Assembly: GCF_023028105.1 (NCBI RefSeq)
Contig: NZ_CP095491.1
Location: 372,001-436,000, forward strand
Direction of reading: 5' to 3'
Source: Halosolutus gelatinilyticus
Lineage (GTDB): Archaea; Halobacteriota; Halobacteria; Halobacteriales; Natrialbaceae
DNA: 64,000 bases
Under the pieces are notes generated by a model. That model was not told the DNA's origin. It ran no database searches and saw nothing but the letters and a program-made list of their open reading frames with translations. Shown piece by piece: positions 7,258-23,322 of the stretch. The translations under genes and the position numbers were made by a program. Position 1 is the first letter of the stretch; every line of letters starts with the position of its first letter.

Positions 7258-8016
7258 TCACCACTCTCCCGGCGCCTTGTCGTTCGCTTCGATGAGCTGG
7301 ATCAACACGGAGGCGAACAGCGACCCCGAACTCCAGATCGCGGTCTCGCTGCCGTCGTCGTCGACGACCGACAGCAGGATGGCGTCGTCGTCGACGATGA
7401 GGATCCGCCCCGATCGATCGTCGTCCCGCCGGTGGGCCGGCGGTCTGGCAACCTCGATCCCGTCGACCCCGCGAAACCGATCGCGGACCGCTTCGGTCCC
7501 GCTGAACGCGACGACGTCGACGCCCGTCTCGGCGCGGTCTTCGAGCGCGGCCGCGATCTCGTCGGTGAGCAGTTCGGGGAGACGGGTCCCGAAGATGAGG
7601 CGTCGATCGGCGTTGGAGACGATGTCGACGACGCGATCGTCGATGCGTTCGCGGCCTCGAATGGTCCAGATGGCCTCCTGGGTCTCCTCGGTTGCCGACT
7701 CCCGTTTGACGGTATCGACGTAGTCGAACGCTCGTTCCCGTTCGCGCTCGAACCGGCGCTCGAGCGTCTCCCGCGCCTCCTCGATACTGACCGGGCGATA
7801 GCGGATCGGACTCGACTGCTGGACCTCGAGTAAGCCGCGTTCTTCGAGGCTCTCGGCGACGCTGTACACCTGCGATCGAGGGACGTCGGCCACGCTGGCG
7901 ACGTCGCGAGCGGTTCCGGAGCCGAGTCGGTGCAAGGCGATGAACACCTTGGCTTCGTAGCTGGTGAGTCCGAGCCGTTCGAACGCGTCTACGGCTTCGT
8001 TCTCGTCGTTCGTCAC
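7258..8016 (-). CDS. TrmB family transcriptional regulator
   Basis: A 252-residue archaeal TrmB-type regulator. The N-terminal winged helix at about 8-85 shows LGLTSYEAKVFIALHRLG, a recognition region DVPRSQVYSVAESLEERGLLEV, and a coiled dimerization helix EEARETLERRFERERERAF. The C-terminal effector domain, about 105-250, contains FGTRLPELL and IWSSGSLFASVLIQLI, similar to sugar- or ligand-sensing TrmB C-domains. It overlaps the upstream MMPL exporter gene by 4 bases on the same strand, so the two are co-transcribed and the regulator is made after the pump. It probably controls its own operon. The ligand is unknown. Confidence 0.93.
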   Translation of the reverse strand: MTNDENEAVDAFERLGLTSYEAKVFIALHRLGSGTARDVASVADVPRSQVYSVAESLEERGLLEVQQSSPIRYRPVSIEEARETLERRFERERERAFDYVDTVKRESATEETQEAIWTIRGRERIDDRVVDIVSNADRRLIFGTRLPELLTDEIAAALEDRAETGVDVVAFSGTEAVRDRFRGVDGIEVARPPAHRRDDDRSGRILIVDDDAILLSVVDDDGSETAIWSSGSLFASVLIQLIEANDKAPGEW

Positions 8017-11000
8017 TCGTCGGTCCCTCCGGCGTCGTTCGTCGAGTCCGTTTCGCGTTCGGCGGGCGTGCCGCCGTCGCTCGCCGCCGCGGGGCTAGCC
8101 GCTCCTGGTGCGTCGAAGGACACGTCCGGACCGAAGTACCGCGTCCAGAGCACCAGCAGCGTCGGCAGGACCACGACGCTCGCGAGGAACGCGTAGGTGA
8201 TCGTCAGTCCGGTGATGATACCGAACTGGCGGAGCGCGGGGAGGATCGCGAAGGCGAGCGTGCCGAAGCCGCCGACGGTCGTCGCCGCGCTGCCGAGCAG
8301 GGCGCCGCCGGTGCCGGTGACCGTCGTTCGCAGCGCCGACCAGACGTTCCCCTGGCGCTCGAGTTCGAGCATGTACCGGTCGCTGACGTGGATGCTGTAG
8401 GCGACCCCGAGCCCGATGGTGAGGCTCGTGATCATCCCCGTCAGCACGTTGAAGGGCATGTCGATCAGATACATCGTTCCCAGGATCCAGCTGACGGTGA
8501 ACGCGACCGGCAGCAGGGTAACGGTTCCGAGCGTCGCGCTGTTGCCGGTCAGGTAGTACGCACCCGAGAGGAAGACGAACACGGCCACGAGCGTTATCAG
8601 CAGGCTCTCGAGGACGGTGTTCAGCAGGTCCTGTTCGACGATGTGGCTGACGACTGGATCGCCGGTGGCGATTGCGCTCCAGCGACCGTTGCCGTCCTCG
8701 ATGTCGTCGGCGATCGCGCGCATCTCGTCGGTCGTGTCGCCGACGGCGGCGCCGCCCTCAATGCCGACGATCAATCGCGCCGCGTCGTACTCGCCGCCGT
8801 CGGTTCGATGGAGCACCTGGCTCGCGGCTTGCTCGTCGGCCTCGTACAGCTGGTCGTACAGCGCCGTGACGTTCTCGTCGGGGACGCCGTCGCCGTCGGT
8901 GTCGGCTGCCCGGAACGACTCGTTGAACGATTCGTTCTGCGCGGCGACCGATTCCATCGTCGACAGCGGGTCCTGGACGCTCGCCTCGCCGTCCGCCCTC
9001 GTGTAGACGACGTCGCTCTCCGCGGCGTCGTCGCGCGCCACGTCGATCGCCGCGAGCAACTCGGGATCGTCGACGCCGCCGCCGTCGGCTTCGACGAGAA
9101 TCTGGGCCTGGCTGTCCTCGCGCTGGAAGTGCTGGTTGACGAACTCCAGATCGTCCTTGGCGTGGTACTCGCCGGGACTCATTCCGGCCGGCAGGTGCTC
9201 GGTCCACGCCGGCGGACTCTCCGCGAGGAAGTCTTCCTCCTGGAAGCTGGTGTCGACCTGGGACGCGCCGTAGACCCCGCCGGCCGAGAGGAGAAGGACG
9301 AGCACGAGGACGACCAGCGGCGCCTTTCGCGCGGCAATCGAACCGATCGTCAGGATCTCGCTGAAGCGGCCGCCGCCGGTCCCGAACGCGCGCTTGCGGC
9401 GGTCCAGGCCGCGCCCTTCAAGGAACTCGTCGATTTCGACCTTGAGCGCGGGGATCAGCGCGCCGAAGACGATCAGCGCGGCGACGATCCCGACGGAGCT
9501 GACGACCCCGAACTCCCGGATCGGGCCGATCGGGCTGACGAGGTTCGAGAGGAAGCCGATGACCGTCGTCGCCGTCACCCAGACGAGCGCGGCGCCGACG
9601 CCGGCCAGTGCGATCCGCATCGAGCCGCGGACGGTGCTGGACCGTCCTTCCGCCTCGCGCTGCTCGCGGTGGCGCATGAAGACGTGAATCGCGTAGTCGA
9701 TCGAGAGCCCGATCAGTAGGACGGGCACCGCGACGAACATCTGGTTGAACGCGATGTCCGCCCAGCCCATGAAGCCGAACGTCCAGACGAGAACGGCCAC
9801 GATGCCGACGACGCCTAGGACGATGTCGAGCAGGTCGCGGTAGGCGACCAGCAGGGCGACGACGACGAACAGCAGCGCGAGCGGACCGACGATGGCGAGA
9901 CTGTCGCCCATCGATCGGTCGATCTCGTCGGTGATGATCCCGCCGCCGAAGACGATATAGTCTTCGTCCTGTGCGGTGGCGAGTTCGCGGATCTCGAGTT
10001 GGCTCTCGACGATTCGATCGTCGAGTCCGCCCATCTCCTCCATGCCGTCGCCGGTCTGAGTCGACTGGCTGATCGAGGTCATCCGCGTCTCGGCTTCGGT
10101 GCTGCCCGGATCGTACGACGAGGGCATCAGCGCGAGCGCGAAGTTCTCCTCGTCGTCGTTCGACGAGAGCGTCTGCTCGAGGAGTTGTTCGTACTCCTCG
10201 TCGTCGAGCTCTTCTATGGCCTCGATCTGCTCTTCGAGCGACGGTTGCTCGTCGTTTTCTTGGAGCGCCCGCCGATCCTCTTGGAGTTGCTGGGAGTCTT
10301 CTTCGAGTTGCTCGTACTCGTCCGCGAAGATGCCGACCGTGGCACCCTGACGGATCTGCGCTAAATTCTCGGTCAGCTCCTGATACTCGGGGTTCTCCTG
10401 GGGAGCGTCGGTCGCCTGTTCGATTTCCCACCGCTGCGATTCGATCTCGCGAGCCTGGCCGACTCGCTGCTCGTACTCGGCGGCCTGCTCGTCGTCCAGC
10501 TCGGCCGCGGCGATCGTCTCCTCGACGACGGCCTCGATCTCGGCCTCCGTCGCCGCGGCGGCTTCTTCGTCACCGGCGGCCGTCTGGTTCGCGTACTCCC
10601 GTTGGAGGGCCAGCGTCTCGTTGAATCCCTCCTCGAGCGTGGCCGTTCTGTTCTCGAGTTGGGCCCGCCGCTGCTCGAGTTCAGCGCCTCGTGATTCGAG
10701 TTCCGCCACCCGCTCGTTGGTGATCGCGGTGAACGCGACGATGTTCTCGACGCCGGTGATCGAGTCGTTTTCCGCCAGCGTCTCGTTGATCGACTCGTTG
10801 TTCCGGATCTTCTGTTGGAATTCCAACGAAGCGATCAGCGACTCCTGCGTGAGTACGTTGTCGCCGCGTGTGATCACCTGCACGCTGGTCGTGTTCCCCT
10901 CGCCTTCGGTCTCGAAGTAGCCCTCGTCCTCGTCAGTGCCTTGAATGCGCTCCAGAGCTTTCGCCTCCGCTGACTCGCTCTCGAACTGATCGAGCGACGA

Positions 11001-11117
11001 ATCGTCGTCGATCATCGGCATGCCCGCGCCGACGAGCGCCGTCAGTAACAGGAGGACGACGATGACGATTCGAGAGTGCCCCGTGACCCCGTTTGCGATA
11101 CGATCTGGAAGGCTCAT
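8013..11117 (-). CDS. RND superfamily MMPL-type transporter
   Basis: A 1034-residue exporter with duplicated RND architecture. One membrane helix at about 12-34 is followed by a large extracytoplasmic domain to about 400, a helix bundle at 405-590 (LLIGLSIDYAIHVFMRHREQ holds the typical GxxxDY motif), a helix at 597-620, a second soluble domain to about 835, and a second bundle at 840-1005 with GLGVAYSIHVSDRY. Family members move hydrophobic molecules, often lipids, using the proton gradient; sterol-sensing-domain and HpnN-like proteins are relatives. The first soluble domain carries a long Glu/Gln-rich coiled-coil stretch at about 130-305, unusual for the family. It heads a two-gene operon with the TrmB regulator. 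A TATA box at 11191-11196 on the minus strand sits about 75 bases before the ATG. Confidence 0.93.
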   Translation of the reverse strand: MSLPDRIANGVTGHSRIVIVVLLLLTALVGAGMPMIDDDSSLDQFESESAEAKALERIQGTDEDEGYFETEGEGNTTSVQVITRGDNVLTQESLIASLEFQQKIRNNESINETLAENDSITGVENIVAFTAITNERVAELESRGAELEQRRAQLENRTATLEEGFNETLALQREYANQTAAGDEEAAAATEAEIEAVVEETIAAAELDDEQAAEYEQRVGQAREIESQRWEIEQATDAPQENPEYQELTENLAQIRQGATVGIFADEYEQLEEDSQQLQEDRRALQENDEQPSLEEQIEAIEELDDEEYEQLLEQTLSSNDDEENFALALMPSSYDPGSTEAETRMTSISQSTQTGDGMEEMGGLDDRIVESQLEIRELATAQDEDYIVFGGGIITDEIDRSMGDSLAIVGPLALLFVVVALLVAYRDLLDIVLGVVGIVAVLVWTFGFMGWADIAFNQMFVAVPVLLIGLSIDYAIHVFMRHREQREAEGRSSTVRGSMRIALAGVGAALVWVTATTVIGFLSNLVSPIGPIREFGVVSSVGIVAALIVFGALIPALKVEIDEFLEGRGLDRRKRAFGTGGGRFSEILTIGSIAARKAPLVVLVLVLLLSAGGVYGASQVDTSFQEEDFLAESPPAWTEHLPAGMSPGEYHAKDDLEFVNQHFQREDSQAQILVEADGGGVDDPELLAAIDVARDDAAESDVVYTRADGEASVQDPLSTMESVAAQNESFNESFRAADTDGDGVPDENVTALYDQLYEADEQAASQVLHRTDGGEYDAARLIVGIEGGAAVGDTTDEMRAIADDIEDGNGRWSAIATGDPVVSHIVEQDLLNTVLESLLITLVAVFVFLSGAYYLTGNSATLGTVTLLPVAFTVSWILGTMYLIDMPFNVLTGMITSLTIGLGVAYSIHVSDRYMLELERQGNVWSALRTTVTGTGGALLGSAATTVGGFGTLAFAILPALRQFGIITGLTITYAFLASVVVLPTLLVLWTRYFGPDVSFDAPGAASPAAASDGGTPAERETDSTNDAGGTDE

Positions 11118-11184
11118 CCGCTCACCTCTCCGAAATACACTATCTGAGTACAGGGAACCATTCTGTTGTTATGATCCTACAAAC

Positions 11185-11200
11185 TACCGCTATATACCTG
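11185..11200 (-). promoter_or_regulatory. Candidate promoter of the MMPL-trmB operon
   Basis: TATATA at 11191-11196, in a region clearly poorer in GC than its surroundings, lies upstream of the MMPL start at 11117. Transcription would begin near 11168 and leave a leader of about 50 bases. That is longer than typical haloarchaeal leaders and could hold the binding site of the TrmB regulator. Assigned from sequence pattern only. Confidence 0.45.
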
Positions 11201-11331
11201 TTCGGATACGGACGCCCGCGTGTGGTTAATCACCAGGGATCGGCGCGGGGCGATTCGTCTATCGCCCGTACGTCCGTCTAGGCAGGCTATCGATCCGAGA
11301 CGCGGCGAAACCTATCCGGAAGCGGTTTCGA

Positions 11332-12066
11332 TCACTCGATCGAGACCGTCGTCAGGTCCTCGGCGAACCGCACGTCGCCGTCGTAGTGGGCGCCGATCGA
11401 CTCGCGCATCTCCTCGCGGCGGCCGTCGGTGTGCGGATAGAGGTGAGTCAGGTAGACGCGTCCGATATCGCGGCCGGCGAGTTCCCTACCGAGGGCGTCG
11501 GGCGTCGGATGGTTCGAGACGTCGACGTCGTCCGGAAACGAGCAGTCGTGAGCCAGAATCGCGGAGCCGTCAGCGAAGTTCGCCAGTCCGGCGAACGCCT
11601 CGCTGTCGCCGCTGAAGGTGAACCGATCGTCGAAGCGGTAGGCGAGACAGGGCAGCGAGTGGCGGGTCTCGTAGGCCGAAACGTCGAAGTCCGCGATCGA
11701 GAACTCGCCGGGGACGACTTCCCGCACCTGCAGATCGATCTTCCCCTGCATGTACTCGTACACGGACAGCAGGTCGTCGAGCAGGGCCTTCGTTCCCTGC
11801 GGACCGAGGACTTCGAGGTGCTCCTCGCCGGCGAGCCAGCGGGCTTTCACCAGCGGCAACAGGTCGGCGACGTGGTCCAGATGATGGTGGGTCAGCAGGA
11901 CCGTCGAGACGTTCTCGTAGCCGACGCCGGACTGCTGGAGCCGGTGGAGCACGCCCGACCCGCAGTCGATCAGCACCGATCGGCCGTCTTCCTGGACGAG
12001 GATCCCGGTCTGGAACCGCTCGCCGGTCGGCATCGCGCTGCCGGTTCCGAGAAAGGTAACGCGCAT
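11332..12066 (-). CDS. MBL-fold metallo-hydrolase, RNase Z-like
   Basis: A 244-residue metallo-beta-lactamase-fold protein from the ATG at 12066, where the family start MRVTFLGTGSAMP is exact. Metal ligands are visible in LLTHHHLDHVADL (about residue 77), in FSGDSEAF (the bridging Asp) and in YLTHLYPH near the C-terminus; AHDCSF is the additional RNase Z-family motif. It lacks the long exosite insertion typical of true tRNase Z, and the motif is HHHLDH. It is therefore more probably a general RNase Z-like hydrolase (phosphodiesterase type) than the tRNA 3'-processing enzyme. It is divergent from rqcH at 12355. The longer in-frame extension to 12543 is antisense to rqcH and is rejected. Confidence 0.88.
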   Translation of the reverse strand: MRVTFLGTGSAMPTGERFQTGILVQEDGRSVLIDCGSGVLHRLQQSGVGYENVSTVLLTHHHLDHVADLLPLVKARWLAGEEHLEVLGPQGTKALLDDLLSVYEYMQGKIDLQVREVVPGEFSIADFDVSAYETRHSLPCLAYRFDDRFTFSGDSEAFAGLANFADGSAILAHDCSFPDDVDVSNHPTPDALGRELAGRDIGRVYLTHLYPHTDGRREEMRESIGAHYDGDVRFAEDLTTVSIE

Positions 12067-12172
12067 ACAAACACGTCCGACGGCCCGACCGATAAGACTG
12101 ACTTCTCGTCCCGTTCTCGCCCGTTCGGCCGTCCCCCTGTACCTGCGCTCGGAGGAACCCGCTATTTTGGAT

Positions 12173-12263
12173 CCGCCACGAAAGCCGCTGGCTCGGCGAA
12201 CCCGGACACAGCAAGGACCGCAGCAAGTTCTGGGAGTCGAACACGGCAGGGCTTTCGTGGCGG
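12173..12263. repeat. Perfect 14-bp inverted repeat enclosing 63 bases (possible structured RNA)
   Basis: The arms CCGCCACGAAAGCC (12173-12186) and GGCTTTCGTGGCGG (12250-12263) are perfect reverse complements in the 288-base space between the divergent RNase Z-like gene and rqcH. The enclosed 63 bases contain no open frame and do not match tRNA, SRP RNA or RNase P signatures that I know. No target-site duplication is evident next to the arms. It could be a structured small RNA, a 5' leader element or a relic of a small mobile element. Confidence 0.6.
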
Positions 12264-12354
12264 TCGTAATCGTTCTCACCGGGTTTTCGGACGATCCCGT
12301 CGGACCTCGAACGGGAGCGACACGCCTTTTTGACCGCGCCGGGGAGTGTGCGAT

Positions 12355-14517
12355 ATGGATCCGAAGCGGGAACTCACCAGCGTCGATCTCGCCGCCCTCG
12401 TTCGGGAACTCGGTGTCTACGAGGGTGCGAAGGTCGACAAGGCCTATCTCTACGGCGACGATCTCGTCCGCCTCAAAATGCGGGACTTCGATCGGGGCCG
12501 GGTCGAACTGCTCCTCGAAGTCGGCGAGGTCAAACGCGCCCACACGGTCGCCCCCGAGCGCGTCCCCGACGCCCCCGGACGGCCGCCGCAGTTCGCGATG
12601 ATGCTCCGGAATCGGCTGTCGGGGGCGGACTTCGTCGGCGTCGAACAGTACGAGTTCGATCGCATCCTCGAGTTCGTGTTTGACCGCGAAGACGGCACGA
12701 CGAGGATCATCGTCGAACTGTTCGGGCAGGGGAACGTCGCCGTCACGGACGGCGAGTACGAGGTGATCGACTCCCTCGAAACGGTTCGGCTCAAGTCCCG
12801 CACCGTCGCGCCCGGCTCGCGCTACGAGTTCCCGGAGTCACGGACGAACCCGCTGACGGTCTCCCGCGAGCAGTTCGATCGCGAGATGGACCAGTCCGAT
12901 ACGGACGTCGTTCGGACGCTCGCGACGCAGTTGAACTTCGGCGGCCTCTACGCCGAGGAACTGTGCACCCGCGCCGGCGTCGAGAAGACGATCGACATCG
13001 ACGACGCCACCGACGACGACTACCGTCGCATCTACGAGGCGATCGAACGGCTCGCGCTCGACGTCCGCAACGGGAACTTCGATCCTCGAATCTACCGCGA
13101 ACCCGCGGACGGCGACGAGAGCGACGGCGAGGGGAGCAGCGACGACGGCGAGGGAGAGGACGCGCGGGTCGTCGACGTCACACCGTTCCCGCTGGAGGAA
13201 CGCGGGAAGATGATCGCCGACCCGGCCGACAGCTTCCTCGCCGCGCTGGACGACTACTTCTTCGAGTTCTCGCTCGAGGACGAGTCCGAGCCCGATCCGA
13301 CCGAACAGAAGCCGGACTTCGAGGCCGAGATCGCGAAACACCGGCGGATCATCGAGCAACAGGAGGGCGCGATCGAGGGGTTCGAACAGCAGGCCGAGGC
13401 CCAGCGCGATCGGGCCGAACTGTTGTACGCGAACTACGGTCTCGTCGACGAGATTCTCTCGACGGTCCAGCAGGCCCGCGCGCAGGATCGGCCGTGGGAC
13501 GAAATCGAGGAGCGCTTCGAGGAGGGCAAAGAGCGCGGCATCGAGGCTGCCGAGGCGGTCGTCGACGTCGACGGCAGCGAGGGGACCGTGACGGTCGAAA
13601 TCGACGGCGAGCGGATCGACCTGTTCGCCCGCGACGGCGTCGAGCAGAACGCCGATCGGCTCTACAACGAAGCGAAACGGATCGAAGAGAAAAAAGAGGG
13701 CGCGCTCGCTGCGATCGAAGACACCCGCGAGGACTTAGAAGGGGCCAAGCGCCGCAAGGAGCAGTGGGAAGCCGAGGATGCGGCGGCCGACGCAGACGAC
13801 GACGAAGACGAGAGCGACGATCGCGACTGGCTCTCGATGCCCTCCGTCCCGATCCGCGAGAACGAACCGTGGTACGATCGGTTCCGATGGTTCCACACCA
13901 GCGACGGCTACCTCGTGATCGGCGGGCGCAACGCCGACCAGAACGAGGAACTCGTCAAGAAGTACCTCGAACCCGGCGACAAGGTGCTCCACACGCAGGC
14001 CCACGGCGGCCCCGTCACGGTCCTCAAGGCGACGGATCCCAGCGAGGCCTCGTCGCACGACATCGAACTCCCCGAGTCGAGCGTCGAGGAGGCCGCCCAG
14101 TTCGCCGTCTCCTACGCGTCGGTCTGGAAGGACGGCCGCTACGCGGGCGACGTCTACGCCGTCGACTCGGACCAGGTCTCGAAGACCCCCGAGAGCGGCG
14201 AGTACCTGGAGAAGGGGGGCTTTGCGGTTCGGGGCGATCGAACCTACTACGACGACACGCCGGTCGGCGTCACGGTCGGCATCCAGTGCGAGCCGTGGAC
14301 CCGCGTGATCGGCGGCCCGCCGTCGGCGATCGAGGGCCAGGCGGAGACGACGATCGCGGTCGAACCCGGCCGCTACGCCCAGGCCGACACGGCGAAGCGG
14401 ATCTACCGGCGCTTCCGCGAGCGGTTCGAAGACGAGACGTTCGTCCGCAAGATCGCCAGCCCCGATCGAATTCAATACTTCCTGCCGCCGGGCGGAAGCC
14501 GGATCGCGGACGACTGA
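12355..14517 (+). CDS. rqcH: RqcH / NFACT family ribosome quality-control protein (Rqc2 homolog)
   Basis: A 720-residue archaeal NFACT protein, formerly annotated fibronectin-binding protein A-like. The ATG at 12355 gives the typical start MDPKRELTSVDLAALVREL. The NFACT-N domain occupies about 1-230. A highly acidic linker at about 250-275 is followed by coiled-coil helices at 320-400 and another at 430-480. The NFACT-R domain at about 500-620 begins WYDRFRWFHTSDGYLVIGGRNADQNE; that WFHTS/GGRNAxQNE block is the family hallmark. Homologues bind 50S subunits obstructed by peptidyl-tRNA and recruit tRNA-Ala to add C-terminal Ala tails. It therefore belongs to the same rescue field as Pelota (22255). 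It stands alone, with TATA-like TTTTTGAC about 25 bases upstream. Confidence 0.93.
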   Translation: MDPKRELTSVDLAALVRELGVYEGAKVDKAYLYGDDLVRLKMRDFDRGRVELLLEVGEVKRAHTVAPERVPDAPGRPPQFAMMLRNRLSGADFVGVEQYEFDRILEFVFDREDGTTRIIVELFGQGNVAVTDGEYEVIDSLETVRLKSRTVAPGSRYEFPESRTNPLTVSREQFDREMDQSDTDVVRTLATQLNFGGLYAEELCTRAGVEKTIDIDDATDDDYRRIYEAIERLALDVRNGNFDPRIYREPADGDESDGEGSSDDGEGEDARVVDVTPFPLEERGKMIADPADSFLAALDDYFFEFSLEDESEPDPTEQKPDFEAEIAKHRRIIEQQEGAIEGFEQQAEAQRDRAELLYANYGLVDEILSTVQQARAQDRPWDEIEERFEEGKERGIEAAEAVVDVDGSEGTVTVEIDGERIDLFARDGVEQNADRLYNEAKRIEEKKEGALAAIEDTREDLEGAKRRKEQWEAEDAAADADDDEDESDDRDWLSMPSVPIRENEPWYDRFRWFHTSDGYLVIGGRNADQNEELVKKYLEPGDKVLHTQAHGGPVTVLKATDPSEASSHDIELPESSVEEAAQFAVSYASVWKDGRYAGDVYAVDSDQVSKTPESGEYLEKGGFAVRGDRTYYDDTPVGVTVGIQCEPWTRVIGGPPSAIEGQAETTIAVEPGRYAQADTAKRIYRRFRERFEDETFVRKIASPDRIQYFLPPGGSRIADD

Positions 14518-14602
14518 TTCCGTCGCGGATCGACGTCCGCGCGCGATCGCCGGTGACGACTCGAGCACAACACCAATGGGGGAGGTGCCCGTATCGGACC
14601 CT

Positions 14603-14983
14603 ATGAGTCCGTCAAATGGAACTCGCGTCGAAGAGGTCATGTCGACGCCGCTGGAGACGATCTCGAAGCGTGCGACGATCGCGGACGCCGCGACGGTGAT
14701 GCGCGACAACGAAATCAGCGCGCTCGTCGTGACGACGGATCCGCCGTCGATCATCACCAGCACCGACATCGTGGCCGCTGCCGCCGACGGGCGCGACCCG
14801 ACCGAGGTGCAGGTCGCCGAGGTGATGACCGAATCCGTCGAGACCGTGCCGCCGGACCTCTATCTGGAGGAGATCGCGGCGATGATGGTCAACTTCGGCA
14901 TCAAACACCTCCCCGTCGTCGACGAGGACGACGAGTATATCGGAATGATCTCCTCGACCGACGTCACCGCGCAACTCTCCTGA
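14603..14983 (+). CDS. CBS-domain pair protein
   Basis: A 126-residue protein made of two CBS domains (Bateman module) and little else. The first runs from VEEVMSTPLETISKRATI to TSTDIVAAAADG, the second from VAEVMTESVETVPPDLY to GMISSTDVTAQL. Such modules bind adenine nucleotides or S-adenosylmethionine and serve as energy or metabolite sensors. The target is unknown. The ATG at 14603 is chosen because the residues encoded before it are not conserved-looking; a start at 14576 would add nine residues. It follows rqcH by 85 bases on the same strand. Confidence 0.88.
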   Translation: MSPSNGTRVEEVMSTPLETISKRATIADAATVMRDNEISALVVTTDPPSIITSTDIVAAAADGRDPTEVQVAEVMTESVETVPPDLYLEEIAAMMVNFGIKHLPVVDEDDEYIGMISSTDVTAQLS

Positions 14984-15091
14984 CGGCGAGATCCGGGTGG
15001 TCTGTGCCCCTCGAAACGAGTTTTCGATCGATCCGTCGACGTAGCGCCTGCGCTCTCGCGTCGCGGTTCCGGTCTCGGACGACCGCTTCGA

Positions 15092-15376
15092 CTACTCGTC
15101 GCCGGCTTCTTCGACGCGCGCGGCGTGTTTCTCGAGATCGGCGGCGATCGTCCGCGCCTGATCGGGCGTCAGCGCGAGTTCCTCCATGTGGGCGGGGAGG
15201 TGTTCCTCGGTCATGTTGTCGAGTTCGAACTGCAGTCGAACGCGGTCGGGGTTCTCCCTGTCCGACGTCGCGTTCACGACGGCAAACGACTCTGTCTCGA
15301 AGTCGTGCCCCGTCGCGACGGCGTCGACGAGGTCGAGCGTCGTGTACGCGTTGACCTTCATCAGTCGATCGGCCAT
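15092..15376 (-). CDS. Conserved haloarchaeal small protein (DUF6360-like)
   Basis: A 94-residue acidic protein beginning MADRLMKVNAYTTLDLVDAV. Its pattern matches what I recall of the haloarchaeal family named DUF6360; the number is from memory and should be checked. It has no transmembrane segment or signal peptide. The C-terminal half (LTPDQARTIAADLEKHAARVEE) is a predicted amphipathic helix. Function is unknown. It lies on the minus strand downstream of ccdA with about 70 bases between. Confidence 0.75.
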   Translation of the reverse strand: MADRLMKVNAYTTLDLVDAVATGHDFETESFAVVNATSDRENPDRVRLQFELDNMTEEHLPAHMEELALTPDQARTIAADLEKHAARVEEAGDE

Positions 15377-15446
15377 GTGTCCGGTTCGAGAGAGCGCTCG
15401 AACGCACTTATACTGCCGGGCGGTGGCAAGCGTTCGCCGGCGTGTG

Positions 15447-16142
15447 TCACGTGGTTCCCGGGAGAACGGCGAACACGAACACGAGGTAGTAGACGGAGAC
15501 GACCACGAGGACGACGCCGACGAGACGGTTCAACGGCGACCCGTAGCGTGCGAGCGTCCGGGTGAGACGCCGGCCGAGCGACTGCGAGAGGACGGCGAAC
15601 GCCAGCAGCGGAGCGCCGATCCCCAGCCCGAACGCAAGGAAGCCGAGCATCACTTCCAGTCCCGAGTCGAACCCGGGGAAGACGACCGTCGATCGGCCGA
15701 AAAACAGCGCGATCAGCCCCGGGTTGCAGGGAATGACGATCGCCCCGAAGAAGAAGCCGTAGCCGAACGCCGACAGGGTGGGATACCTGCTGTGGGGCGG
15801 TTCTATCGTCGGAAATCGGGCGAACCCGTTCGGCGCGACGACGAGCACCGCGCCGACGACCGCGAGGACGGCGAAGGCGATCGGCGAGAGGAGGTCGACG
15901 GCGTCCGCGACCCCCGCTCCCAGCACGACGGTCCACAGCAGGCCGACGACCGTCACGAACGCCAGCACGCCGGCGACGACGAGGAGGCCGAGCAGCGCTT
16001 CCGAGGGTCGCCGATCGCCCTCGCTTGCAGAGACCAGGTACGCGACGAACGAGGGATACAGGGGGATGACGCAGGTCGCCGTCAGCGGCGTCGCGAGGCC
16101 GAGCAGGAAGAACTCGAGTAGCGCGGCGGCGGTCGAGGTCAC
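15447..16142 (-). CDS. ccdA: Cytochrome c biogenesis protein CcdA family (thiol-disulfide membrane transporter)
   Basis: A 231-residue polytopic membrane protein of the CcdA/DsbD-beta type with about six helices. The two redox cysteines are present: Cys24 in TATCVIPLYPS in helix 1 and a second near 139 in VIPCNPGLIALFF in helix 4, each in the expected Pro/Cys context. CcdA carries reducing equivalents from cytoplasmic thioredoxin across the membrane to outward-facing thioredoxin-like proteins. Those keep apocytochrome c haem-binding cysteines, or other outside thiols, reduced. A thioredoxin-like Tat lipoprotein gene lies 58 bases upstream on the same strand and is the obvious partner. Confidence 0.93.
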   Translation of the reverse strand: MTSTAAALLEFFLLGLATPLTATCVIPLYPSFVAYLVSASEGDRRPSEALLGLLVVAGVLAFVTVVGLLWTVVLGAGVADAVDLLSPIAFAVLAVVGAVLVVAPNGFARFPTIEPPHSRYPTLSAFGYGFFFGAIVIPCNPGLIALFFGRSTVVFPGFDSGLEVMLGFLAFGLGIGAPLLAFAVLSQSLGRRLTRTLARYGSPLNRLVGVVLVVVSVYYLVFVFAVLPGTT

Positions 16143-19115: not shown

Positions 19116-19519
19116 ACGAGCGATTCCGCGGCCACGACCCTTCGTCCGTCGCCCCGGGCAAGGCTTACCGGCGTGACGAGTCGCGTTCGAGCCGAAAATC
19201 GCGCGACGAGAGCGTGGTGAATATCGCCATCGGAGACCGAGATAGCGGCGATCGTTTCCGGCATGCGCGAGCGACGCACCGCCACCGATCGTTCGAAGGT
19301 GGCGTTCGTCGAGAGCCGAGGGCGAGCGGTGCCGAGGCTCGCCGGTTCACGGGCCGTGCTCAGCCCCGTCTCGATCGGCCGATACGGGTTCGACCGGGCT
19401 CGTCGGAAACAGTCGTCGGCAATCACCGTGCCAAATTATTTCTATATAATATATGTGCAAATAACGTTTGAACTATTTGTCACAAACTTTTATAACTCGA
19501 AAAATAGTACCGGTGTCCC
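19116..19519. other. 404-base intergenic space, AT-rich at its right end
   Basis: No convincing gene is seen; short frames here have no coding bias. The last 90 bases (about 19430-19519) drop sharply in GC and contain the promoter of the amidase gene. The remainder is ordinary GC-rich DNA between divergent genes. Confidence 0.6.
19449..19494 (+). promoter_or_regulatory. Candidate promoter of the peptidoglycan amidase gene
   Basis: TTTTATA at 19488-19494 is a good archaeal TATA box about 28 bases upstream of the ATG at 19520, so the message would be leaderless or nearly so. Upstream, CGTTTG and CAAAC(T) arms flank a 14-base AT-rich centre (about 19465-19487), a possible regulator site. The sequence TATATAATATATG near 19443-19455 is a second potential TATA element. 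Confidence 0.5.
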
Positions 19520-20461
19520 ATGTGCCTCGAGTGCACACGACACGACGACGAAGCGCACGAATCGGAAGCGACCGACGATCGGACGGGCGATCGCTCGAGG
19601 TGGAATCGCCGATCCTTCCTCCGGGCGTCCGGTGCTGCGGCCGGAACGGGGACGCTCCTGGGAACCCAGACGGACCGCGCGGCCGCGTCGCACACGGAGT
19701 GTCCGGCGGCGGACCGGTGGGTTGGATCACCGAACCACAGCACTCGCCAGTACGGTATCAACTGGATCGTCATCCACGTCACCGCCGGCGCCTACCAGGG
19801 CGCGCTGAACACGCTGACCAGTTCGGATTCGGGCGTCAGCTCCCACTACCTCGTGAAAAACTACGACTGGACCAGCGGTCCGGCAGCCGGCCACGTCGAT
19901 CAGCTCGTTCACCACAACCGCGCAGCGTGGCACGCCCGGTACATCGCGAACCACCGCTCGATCGGTATCGAGCACGAGTGGTTCAACGACAACGGCATCT
20001 CCGAGGCGTGTTACCAGTCGTCGGCGGAGCTCGTCCGGTGTATCGCCGACACGTACGACATCCCGCTCGAGTTCTACACGAGCAACACGTGCATTCAAAA
20101 TCATTCCGGCGGGATCATCGGCCACACGCACGTCCCGGACGGCGGGTGTGACAGTTTCTATCACGGAGGCCGAACCTGTCCGTACCCGGACTGGGACATG
20201 GACTACTTCGCGAGCCTCGTCCGCGACGGCGACGGCGGCGACAAGTTCCAGGACGGCGATCAGGTGCGCACCACGACCGGTCTCAACGGACGGGAGGGCC
20301 CCGGCCTCAACTACGACGTCGTCCGAACGTATCCCGAGGGAACGCAAGGCGAGATCATGAACGGCCCCGAAACCAACGACGGCTACACCTGGTGGGGCAT
20401 TCACTTCCCCAGCTACAACGAGTGGGTCTGGTGCGTCGAGCGCTACCTCGCGCACGCCTGA
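19520..20461 (+). CDS. Tat-exported N-acetylmuramoyl-L-alanine amidase with SH3-like domain
   Basis: 313 residues. A twin-arginine signal (RRSFLRASG at about 30) is followed by a short Ala/Gly hydrophobic run and an AAASHT cleavage-like site. Residues about 75-235 form an Amidase_2/PGRP-type zinc amidase. Likely zinc ligands are His86 (IVIHVTAG), His202 (GHTHVPDGG) and Cys220 (TCPYPDW), with the IGIEHEW strand between. Residues about 243-313 are an SH3b-like cell-wall-binding domain (TGLNGREGPGLNYDVV). The enzyme cleaves the lactyl-amide bond between muramic acid and L-Ala in peptidoglycan. Haloarchaea have no peptidoglycan, so the target must be bacterial walls outside the cell. Several extra cysteines suggest disulfides in the exported protein. 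Acquisition from bacteria is likely. Confidence 0.92.
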   Translation: MCLECTRHDDEAHESEATDDRTGDRSRWNRRSFLRASGAAAGTGTLLGTQTDRAAASHTECPAADRWVGSPNHSTRQYGINWIVIHVTAGAYQGALNTLTSSDSGVSSHYLVKNYDWTSGPAAGHVDQLVHHNRAAWHARYIANHRSIGIEHEWFNDNGISEACYQSSAELVRCIADTYDIPLEFYTSNTCIQNHSGGIIGHTHVPDGGCDSFYHGGRTCPYPDWDMDYFASLVRDGDGGDKFQDGDQVRTTTGLNGREGPGLNYDVVRTYPEGTQGEIMNGPETNDGYTWWGIHFPSYNEWVWCVERYLAHA

Positions 20462-22254: not shown

Positions 22255-23322
22255 ATGCAGATCAAAGACCGGGAGCACGTCGAGGGCGGACGCGAACGGG
22301 TGACCGTCGTCCCCGAGAGCGTCGACGACCTCTGGCACCTCCAGTACGTCCTCGAGCCCGGCGATCGGGTCGCGGGCGATACGACCCGGCGGATCCAGCG
22401 CAACGACGACCAGATGCGGGATACGGGCGGCGAGCGCGAGCACATGTGGGTCGCGATCGCCGTCGAGGATATCGAGTTCCACAAGTTCGCGAACCGGCTG
22501 CGCGTCGGCGGCGAGATCGTCGCCTGTTCGCGCGAGGACCAGCTCGGCTTTCACCACACGCTGAACGTCGAGGAGCGCGACGAACTCTCGATCGAAAAGT
22601 GGTTCAAACCGGATCAGGAGGCCCGACTCGAGGAGGCCGAGGAGGCCACCGAGAACCCCGACGTGGCGATCGCGACCGTCGAGGAGGGCGAGGCCCACGT
22701 CCACACGGTCGCCCAGTACGGCACCGAGGAGCGGGCGACGATTACCGGTCCCACCGGCAAGGGCGAGTACGCTCGGGATCGATCGGAACTGTTCTCGGAA
22801 CTCGGCGACGTCCTCAAGCGCCAGGACGCCGACGCGATCATCCTCGCCGGCCCCGGCTTCACGAAGCAGGACGCCTACAAGTACCTGGAGCAGAACGAGC
22901 CCGAAGTCGCCGAGAAGGTGACGATGGTCGACACGGCGAGCGTCGGCGATCGCGGCGTTCACGAGGTCCTCAAGCGCGGCGCGGTCGCGGACGTTCAACA
23001 GGAGACCCGCATCGAGAGCGAGGCCGAGTACATCGACGAACTCACGAAGCGCATCGCCGAGGGCGCGAAGGCGGCCTACGGGCCCGACGACGTGAAGCGG
23101 GCCGCAGAGTACGGCGCGATCGAACGTCTGCTGATCGTCGACGATCGGCTGCGACAGGAGCGCGGCCCCGACGGCGAGTGGGCGATCGACGTCGACGAGG
23201 TCGTCCGCACGGCCGAGCAGAAAGGCGGCGAGGTGACGGTCTTCTCGAGCGAGTTCCCGCCGGGGGAACAGCTCTCGAATCTCGGCGGCATCGCGGCGCT
23301 GTTGCGGTACCGGCTCGACTGA
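22255..23322 (+). CDS. pelA: mRNA surveillance protein Pelota
   Basis: 355 residues, the expected length for archaeal Pelota (aPelota/Dom34). The N-terminal Sm-like domain contains [24 protein letters not shown]. The central eRF1-like domain includes [13 protein letters not shown] and [18 protein letters not shown]. The C-terminal domain reads [44 protein letters not shown]. The Gly-Gly-Gln of eRF1 is absent, as expected. It binds stalled ribosomes with an empty A site and, with ABCE1, splits them. It complements RqcH at 12355 in the same pathway. It starts at an ATG 110 bases after the preceding gene and is probably monocistronic. Confidence 0.96.

Follow-up and report, generated by a model that had tools for sequence, protein, structure and literature searches.

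Haloarchaea do not have a bacterial-type cell wall, that is, they have no peptidoglycan. What use would a haloarchaeon then make of a secreted enzyme that appears to cut peptidoglycan? The question is raised by a gene of Halosolutus gelatinilyticus that lies in the window (our term for the whole 64,000-nucleotide stretch of DNA that was analyzed) and whose product is, in our judgment, very likely a Tat-secreted zinc N-acetylmuramoyl-L-alanine amidase. The open reading frame was exact in both frame and coordinates, with a product of 313 aa (Table 1). Chance long open reading frames are common in this GC-rich genome, and we regard the amidase gene as functional because it has a domain match, because its orthologs have the same MCLxC start, and because the orthologs are under purifying selection, with dN/dS values of 0.07-0.16 in the amidase domain and 0.12-0.36 in the SH3b domain. 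The MCLxC motif belongs to a Cys-containing N-terminal extension ahead of the Tat motif (19520-19603 of the window) that is conserved in the orthologs; relatives of the M23 type (L021 and L022) have an N-terminal extension of another kind, rich in Cys/His.

Table 1. Positions of the features discussed (window coordinates unless another locus is named)
Feature	Position	Strand	Basis or content
Amidase gene	19520..20461	+	ORF, Pfam/NCBIfam, orthologs 75-81% identical, dN/dS
AT-rich promoter region, 32% GC	19420..19519	+	sequence; lowest-GC 100-bp stretch of whole window
TTTTATAA, TATA-like box	19488-19495	+	25-32 bp upstream of ATG
Twin-arginine signal, residues ~29-57, NRRSFLRASGAAAG...AAAS	19604..19690	+	TIGR01409
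Amidase_2 catalytic domain, residues 64-236	19709..20227	+	Pfam, alignment, Foldseek
H86, zinc ligand	19775-19777	+	alignment
E151, AmpD Glu116 position	19970-19972	+	alignment; invariant
H202, zinc ligand	20123-20125	+	alignment
C220, zinc ligand	20177-20179	+	alignment
C-terminal SH3b-like domain, residues 243-313	20246..20458	+	homologs above SH3_3 cut-off; model and Foldseek
NFACT-domain gene, one flank of variable slot holding amidase	12346..14517	+	Pfam, synteny
aRF1 (peptide chain release factor), other slot flank	22255..23322	+	Pfam, synteny
Cluster in the window's own genome	L150 (G000:C2:528000-547900), 7803-15879		ABC sugar importer, Tat-signal NagZ-type GH3, Tat-signal NamZ, second NamZ
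Cluster on Halorussus limi plasmid	L066, 284-8453		short Amidase_2 gene with AnmK, HAD hydrolase, beta-lactamase-family protein, NamZ, nagZ

The Tat signal scored 17.0 bits against TIGR01409, above the cut-off of 16.7 (the Pfam TAT_signal match, 17.6 bits, was under its own cut-off), its RR is invariant in 26 haloarchaeal relatives, and no lipobox Cys follows the signal in the amidase. The Pfam match to Amidase_2 (PF01510) covers residues 80-222 (E 3.8e-20, 73 bits vs. a cut-off of 26), and the best PDB matches found by Foldseek for the predicted model were AmpD, AmiD, AmiA/AmiE and endolysins, the model of the whole protein being moderate (mean pLDDT 71.6) and its metal loop, residues 205-221, badly modelled (pLDDT below 50). 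When the active site is aligned with AmpD and AmiD of E. coli and with relatives from bacteria and haloarchaea, the zinc ligands correspond to H86, H202 and C220; the two histidines are invariant among the 26 haloarchaeal relatives and the third ligand is either Cys or, as in AmpD, Asp. Two departures lie close to the metal: Arg218 occupies the position of AmpD Lys162, a position that is variable among the relatives, and the metal loop reads CPYPDW vs. CPGPDW in most Cys-type relatives. From these residues we consider the protein probably active as an enzyme, with Arg218 and the CPYPDW loop as reasons for caution.

The C-terminal domain was less easily recognized. Pfam SH3_3 had no match in the window amidase, although homologs of the domain pass the SH3_3 cut-off. 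At its C-terminus the predicted model forms a beta barrel of high confidence (block pLDDT mostly 81-97), for which Foldseek returned SH3-like wall-binding domains of fungal muramidases, 8b2f/8b2g and SH3 domains. Going by homology and the model, the domain is a probable wall anchor. An earlier note on this DNA had proposed the twin-arginine signal, the same three zinc ligands under the same numbers, the Amidase_2 fold and a C-terminal SH3b-like domain, and all four held up, the last of them via homologs and fold even though it is under the Pfam threshold in the window protein. Its description of a gene standing alone behind an AT-rich promoter was also accurate, as there is no co-directional operon partner, the next open reading frame downstream is convergent, and the promoter region has the lowest GC content of any 100 bp in the window. 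The position of TTTTATAA is consistent with a leaderless transcript of the amidase gene. That such a promoter is a sign of an acquired gene, as was also suggested, does not follow: AT-rich promoters are ordinary in haloarchaea and say nothing on acquisition.

What does the amidase cut? Module shuffling among the haloarchaeal relatives provides the strongest evidence and, as far as domain composition can tell, a well supported case that the substrate is peptidoglycan. The haloarchaeal SH3b domain is also joined to an M23 peptidase, including in a Tat protein of the window's own genome (L002); an SH3b of the window type is fused to a SleB-like domain in L011 and L012 (matching Pfam Hydrolase_2 in L011 at E 0.023, which is under the cut-off, and with no Pfam match in L012); and SH3b, Amidase_2 and a GH73 glucosaminidase are combined in L008, L052 and L130. 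Related amidases have two PG_binding_1 domains instead (L126 and, by sequence, L128 and L110), and in relatives L008, L010 and L126 both the catalytic domain and a Pfam binding domain are above threshold. Because peptidoglycan is the only substrate common to these partners of SH3b and PG_binding_1 (Amidase_2, M23, GH73 and SleB-like), it is the likely substrate. The bacterial-wall substrate proposed earlier is thus supported by the domain partners of the relatives, and bacterial peptidoglycan would most likely be what the window amidase acts on, although SH3b domains are able to bind targets besides peptidoglycan, which counts against this reading. Two of the relatives deserve mention in their own right: L002 (1069-1809, minus strand), with its Tat signal, SH3b and M23 peptidase, gives the window's genome another secreted wall hydrolase besides the amidase, and L102 (in G207), an open frame that runs to 841 aa or more, has an N-terminus that is putatively esterase-like and an Amidase_2 domain flanked by SH3b repeats.

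Where did the gene come from? Amidase_2 was present in 50 of 391 Halobacteria genomes, and when 67 amidase domains were placed in a maximum-likelihood tree, all 45 haloarchaeal ones were grouped together by a single branch (99/98), beside amidases of Streptomyces and Nonomuraea, with a long stem (0.74) to the window subclade; the bacterial sequences in this tree were drawn from collections of plasmids, phages, viral contigs and E. coli, a narrow sampling. A megablast against plasmids gave no match. The amidase gene occupies a variable slot, and orthologs next to aRF1 in this slot were found in Natrialba species and in genera g5, g14 and g26 (the last being our code for Natrialba), while in two genomes of the same genus as H. 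gelatinilyticus the amidase is missing and only ~0.7-0.8 kb separates the NFACT gene from aRF1. In another genome (G192; L095, 6413-9995) the amidase gene is followed by intergenic DNA resembling that of Natrialba aegyptia and then by a 25-codon stub of aRF1, with an intact aRF1 ~1.4 kb beyond; the stub may be the scar of a transfer between haloarchaeal genera. On present sampling the tree suggests a single old entry into haloarchaea from an actinobacterial-type donor, followed by spread and loss. The claim that the gene was acquired from bacteria therefore stands for its ultimate, actinobacterial-type ancestry and fails for a recent, individual acquisition by H. gelatinilyticus, which is ruled out by the single haloarchaeal clade, the conserved slot and the matched codon usage (GC3 of 0.84, with neighbors at 0.80-0.91). 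The earlier note had held that a phylogeny deep inside the archaea together with a non-wall substrate would speak against it; the phylogeny is indeed deep, but the domain partners of the relatives still indicate wall peptidoglycan. Contamination was also ruled out, as the gene is flanked by those for NFACT and aRF1 in an archaeal contig of 3.9 Mb, and a role in anti-phage defence was rejected in the absence of any PADLOC match.

How does the protein compare with known systems? Its Amidase_2 fold and zinc site are shared with E. coli AmpD and AmiD, Staphylococcus AmiA and AmiE and phage endolysins, but identities in the structural matches are 14-30%, none of these proteins has the haloarchaeal SH3b, and AmpD is cytosolic. 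The secreted Amidase_2 proteins of Streptomyces and Nonomuraea, its sister group in the tree, have the same catalytic residues, and the nearest of them include short secreted single-domain amidases; they differ in having Asp instead of Cys at the zinc and in lacking the haloarchaeal SH3b. Within the archaea, the Tat-secreted haloarchaeal hydrolases Woldo and Danwoldo kill a halophilic bacterium (Strock et al., 2025; PMC12352652), and the window protein is like them in being haloarchaeal, Tat-secreted, patchily distributed, of bacterial ancestry, and built of shuffled catalytic and wall-binding modules. However, Woldo and Danwoldo pair M23 or a glucosaminidase with PG_binding_1, whereas the window protein pairs Amidase_2 with an SH3b under the Pfam threshold (L002 is of Woldo's type, except that SH3b replaces PG_binding_1). 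Judged by the criterion of that study, a Pfam catalytic domain plus a Pfam wall-binding domain, the window protein has the catalytic domain only, with its Tat secretion signal present, and since its SH3b is under threshold a screen demanding a Pfam binding domain would miss it. Archaeal peptidoglycan hydrolases are already a known kind, and most of the surprise of finding one has gone since 2025, the year in which an archaeal attack on bacterial walls was first demonstrated (PMC12352652); the same study left open whether such hydrolases are used to compete, to prey or to scavenge.

That question bears on H. gelatinilyticus through a second locus, on contig C2 and thus unlinked to the amidase on C1, in which two NamZ genes and a GH3 gene adjoin an ABC sugar importer. 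Its Tat-signal NamZ (exo-muramidase) has both Pfam domains, and its Tat-signal GH3 has the motif KHFPGHGDTHTDSH, which we take to mark the NagZ type. From its gene content, the cluster's probable function is catabolism of peptidoglycan sugars. Peptidoglycan catabolism by NamZ and NagZ is known from Bacillus subtilis, and the window's genome likewise encodes a NamZ and a NagZ-type enzyme that carry secretion signals; it differs from the B. subtilis route in that the amidase is unlinked, an ABC importer takes the place of the PTS, and AnmK had no match in this genome. The proposition that absence of AnmK excludes feeding was overturned by the finding of NamZ. Across the 391 Halobacteria genomes NamZ occurred in 16, of which 11 also had Amidase_2 (Fisher p 1.4e-7, not corrected for phylogeny), and in all 15 genomes with AnmK. 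A short Amidase_2 gene lies within such a cluster on the Halorussus limi plasmid, and in the stretch examined of a Halorussus vallis plasmid (L072) another lies with AnmK, a HAD hydrolase and a beta-lactamase-family protein/serine hydrolase. It is a fair possibility, to which we give a little less than an even chance, that some haloarchaea eat bacterial walls, the amidase and M23 enzymes opening the peptidoglycan, NamZ and NagZ-type GH3 cutting the glycan to MurNAc and GlcNAc and the ABC transporter importing these, with amidase, AnmK, NamZ and NagZ gathered elsewhere into one cluster. In the literature searched we found no paper on a dedicated peptidoglycan catabolic pathway or clusters in Archaea, and these probable catabolic clusters are a more novel lead than the amidase itself.

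Is the amidase, then, a weapon or a tool for feeding? If it were secreted pre-emptively against competing halophilic bacteria, with the wall itself not used as food, one would have the precedent of Halogranum, whose Woldo and Danwoldo kill Halalkalibacterium (PMC12352652), and one could readily accommodate the patchy presence of Amidase_2, its absence from two same-genus genomes, the probable transfer between haloarchaea at the G192 locus, and the seven sampled Natrialba genomes, all of which have the amidase but lack both NamZ and AnmK. The NamZ/NagZ-type/ABC cluster in the window's genome and the co-occurrence of Amidase_2 with NamZ argue against this, and they are the very observations that favor scavenging, mostly of dead bacterial wall, by amidase and M23 followed by NamZ and NagZ and then ABC import, as does the position of the Halorussus limi amidase gene. 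Against scavenging stand the missing AnmK and the fact that the SH3b-type amidase, that of the window, is unlinked to the NamZ cluster in all four genomes of the window's family that have both. Because of the cluster and the association of NamZ with Amidase_2, we consider wall feeding as likely as warfare, each tenable but short of probable when taken as the sole use; of the earlier proposal of a weapon or a way to feed on walls, the preference for the weapon is thus unsupported.

The remaining explanations depart from the bacterial wall or from catalysis. Having abandoned the ancestral substrate, the enzyme might act on a surface polymer of the haloarchaeon itself (e.g., a glycopolymer or polyglutamate), as the long branch of the window subclade, its changed metal loop and its vertical stability in Natrialba would allow; we think this improbable given peptidoglycan-specific domain partners and a gene missing from two same-genus genomes and from about 87% of the sampled Halobacteria. 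Slightly less probable still is an inactive, PGRP-like protein that merely binds peptidoglycan, for while Arg218 and the CPY sequence are changes by the metal site, all three zinc ligands and E151 are retained and the amidase domain is under the selection described above. A remnant of a viral endolysin is disfavored to the point of being very improbable: there are weak PHROG endolysin matches, but viral matches are confined to one distant phage hit and two weak hits to viral contigs, no viral genes lie nearby, and the protein has a Tat signal.

The explanation we favor, and consider likely as a whole, is a Tat-secreted zinc amidase of old actinobacterial-type origin that acts on the bacterial wall and serves both to lyse bacteria and to eat them. 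From the domains, residues, signal, selection, phylogeny and companion genes, all read from sequence, we infer catalysis, substrate and ecological use as follows. The amidase would fold in the cytoplasm and then be exported via Tat, its SH3b-like domain would keep it on bacterial peptidoglycan, and its H86/H202/C220 zinc site with E151 would cut the MurNAc-L-Ala amide, so that stem peptides would be removed and the wall weakened or lysed. The stripped glycan could be trimmed by the secreted NamZ and NagZ-type GH3 and imported by the neighboring ABC transporter, and the archaeon's gain would most likely be double, from the lysis of bacteria and from eating the released material. The family would have been in haloarchaea since long ago, spreading, being lost in patches and swapping its binding and catalytic modules.

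We conclude that the window family adds an amidase branch to the archaeal wall hydrolases. As its SH3b form can fall under Pfam thresholds, archaeal wall hydrolases have probably been undercounted, and the co-occurrence of NamZ, AnmK and NagZ provides a genetic handle for telling killing from feeding.
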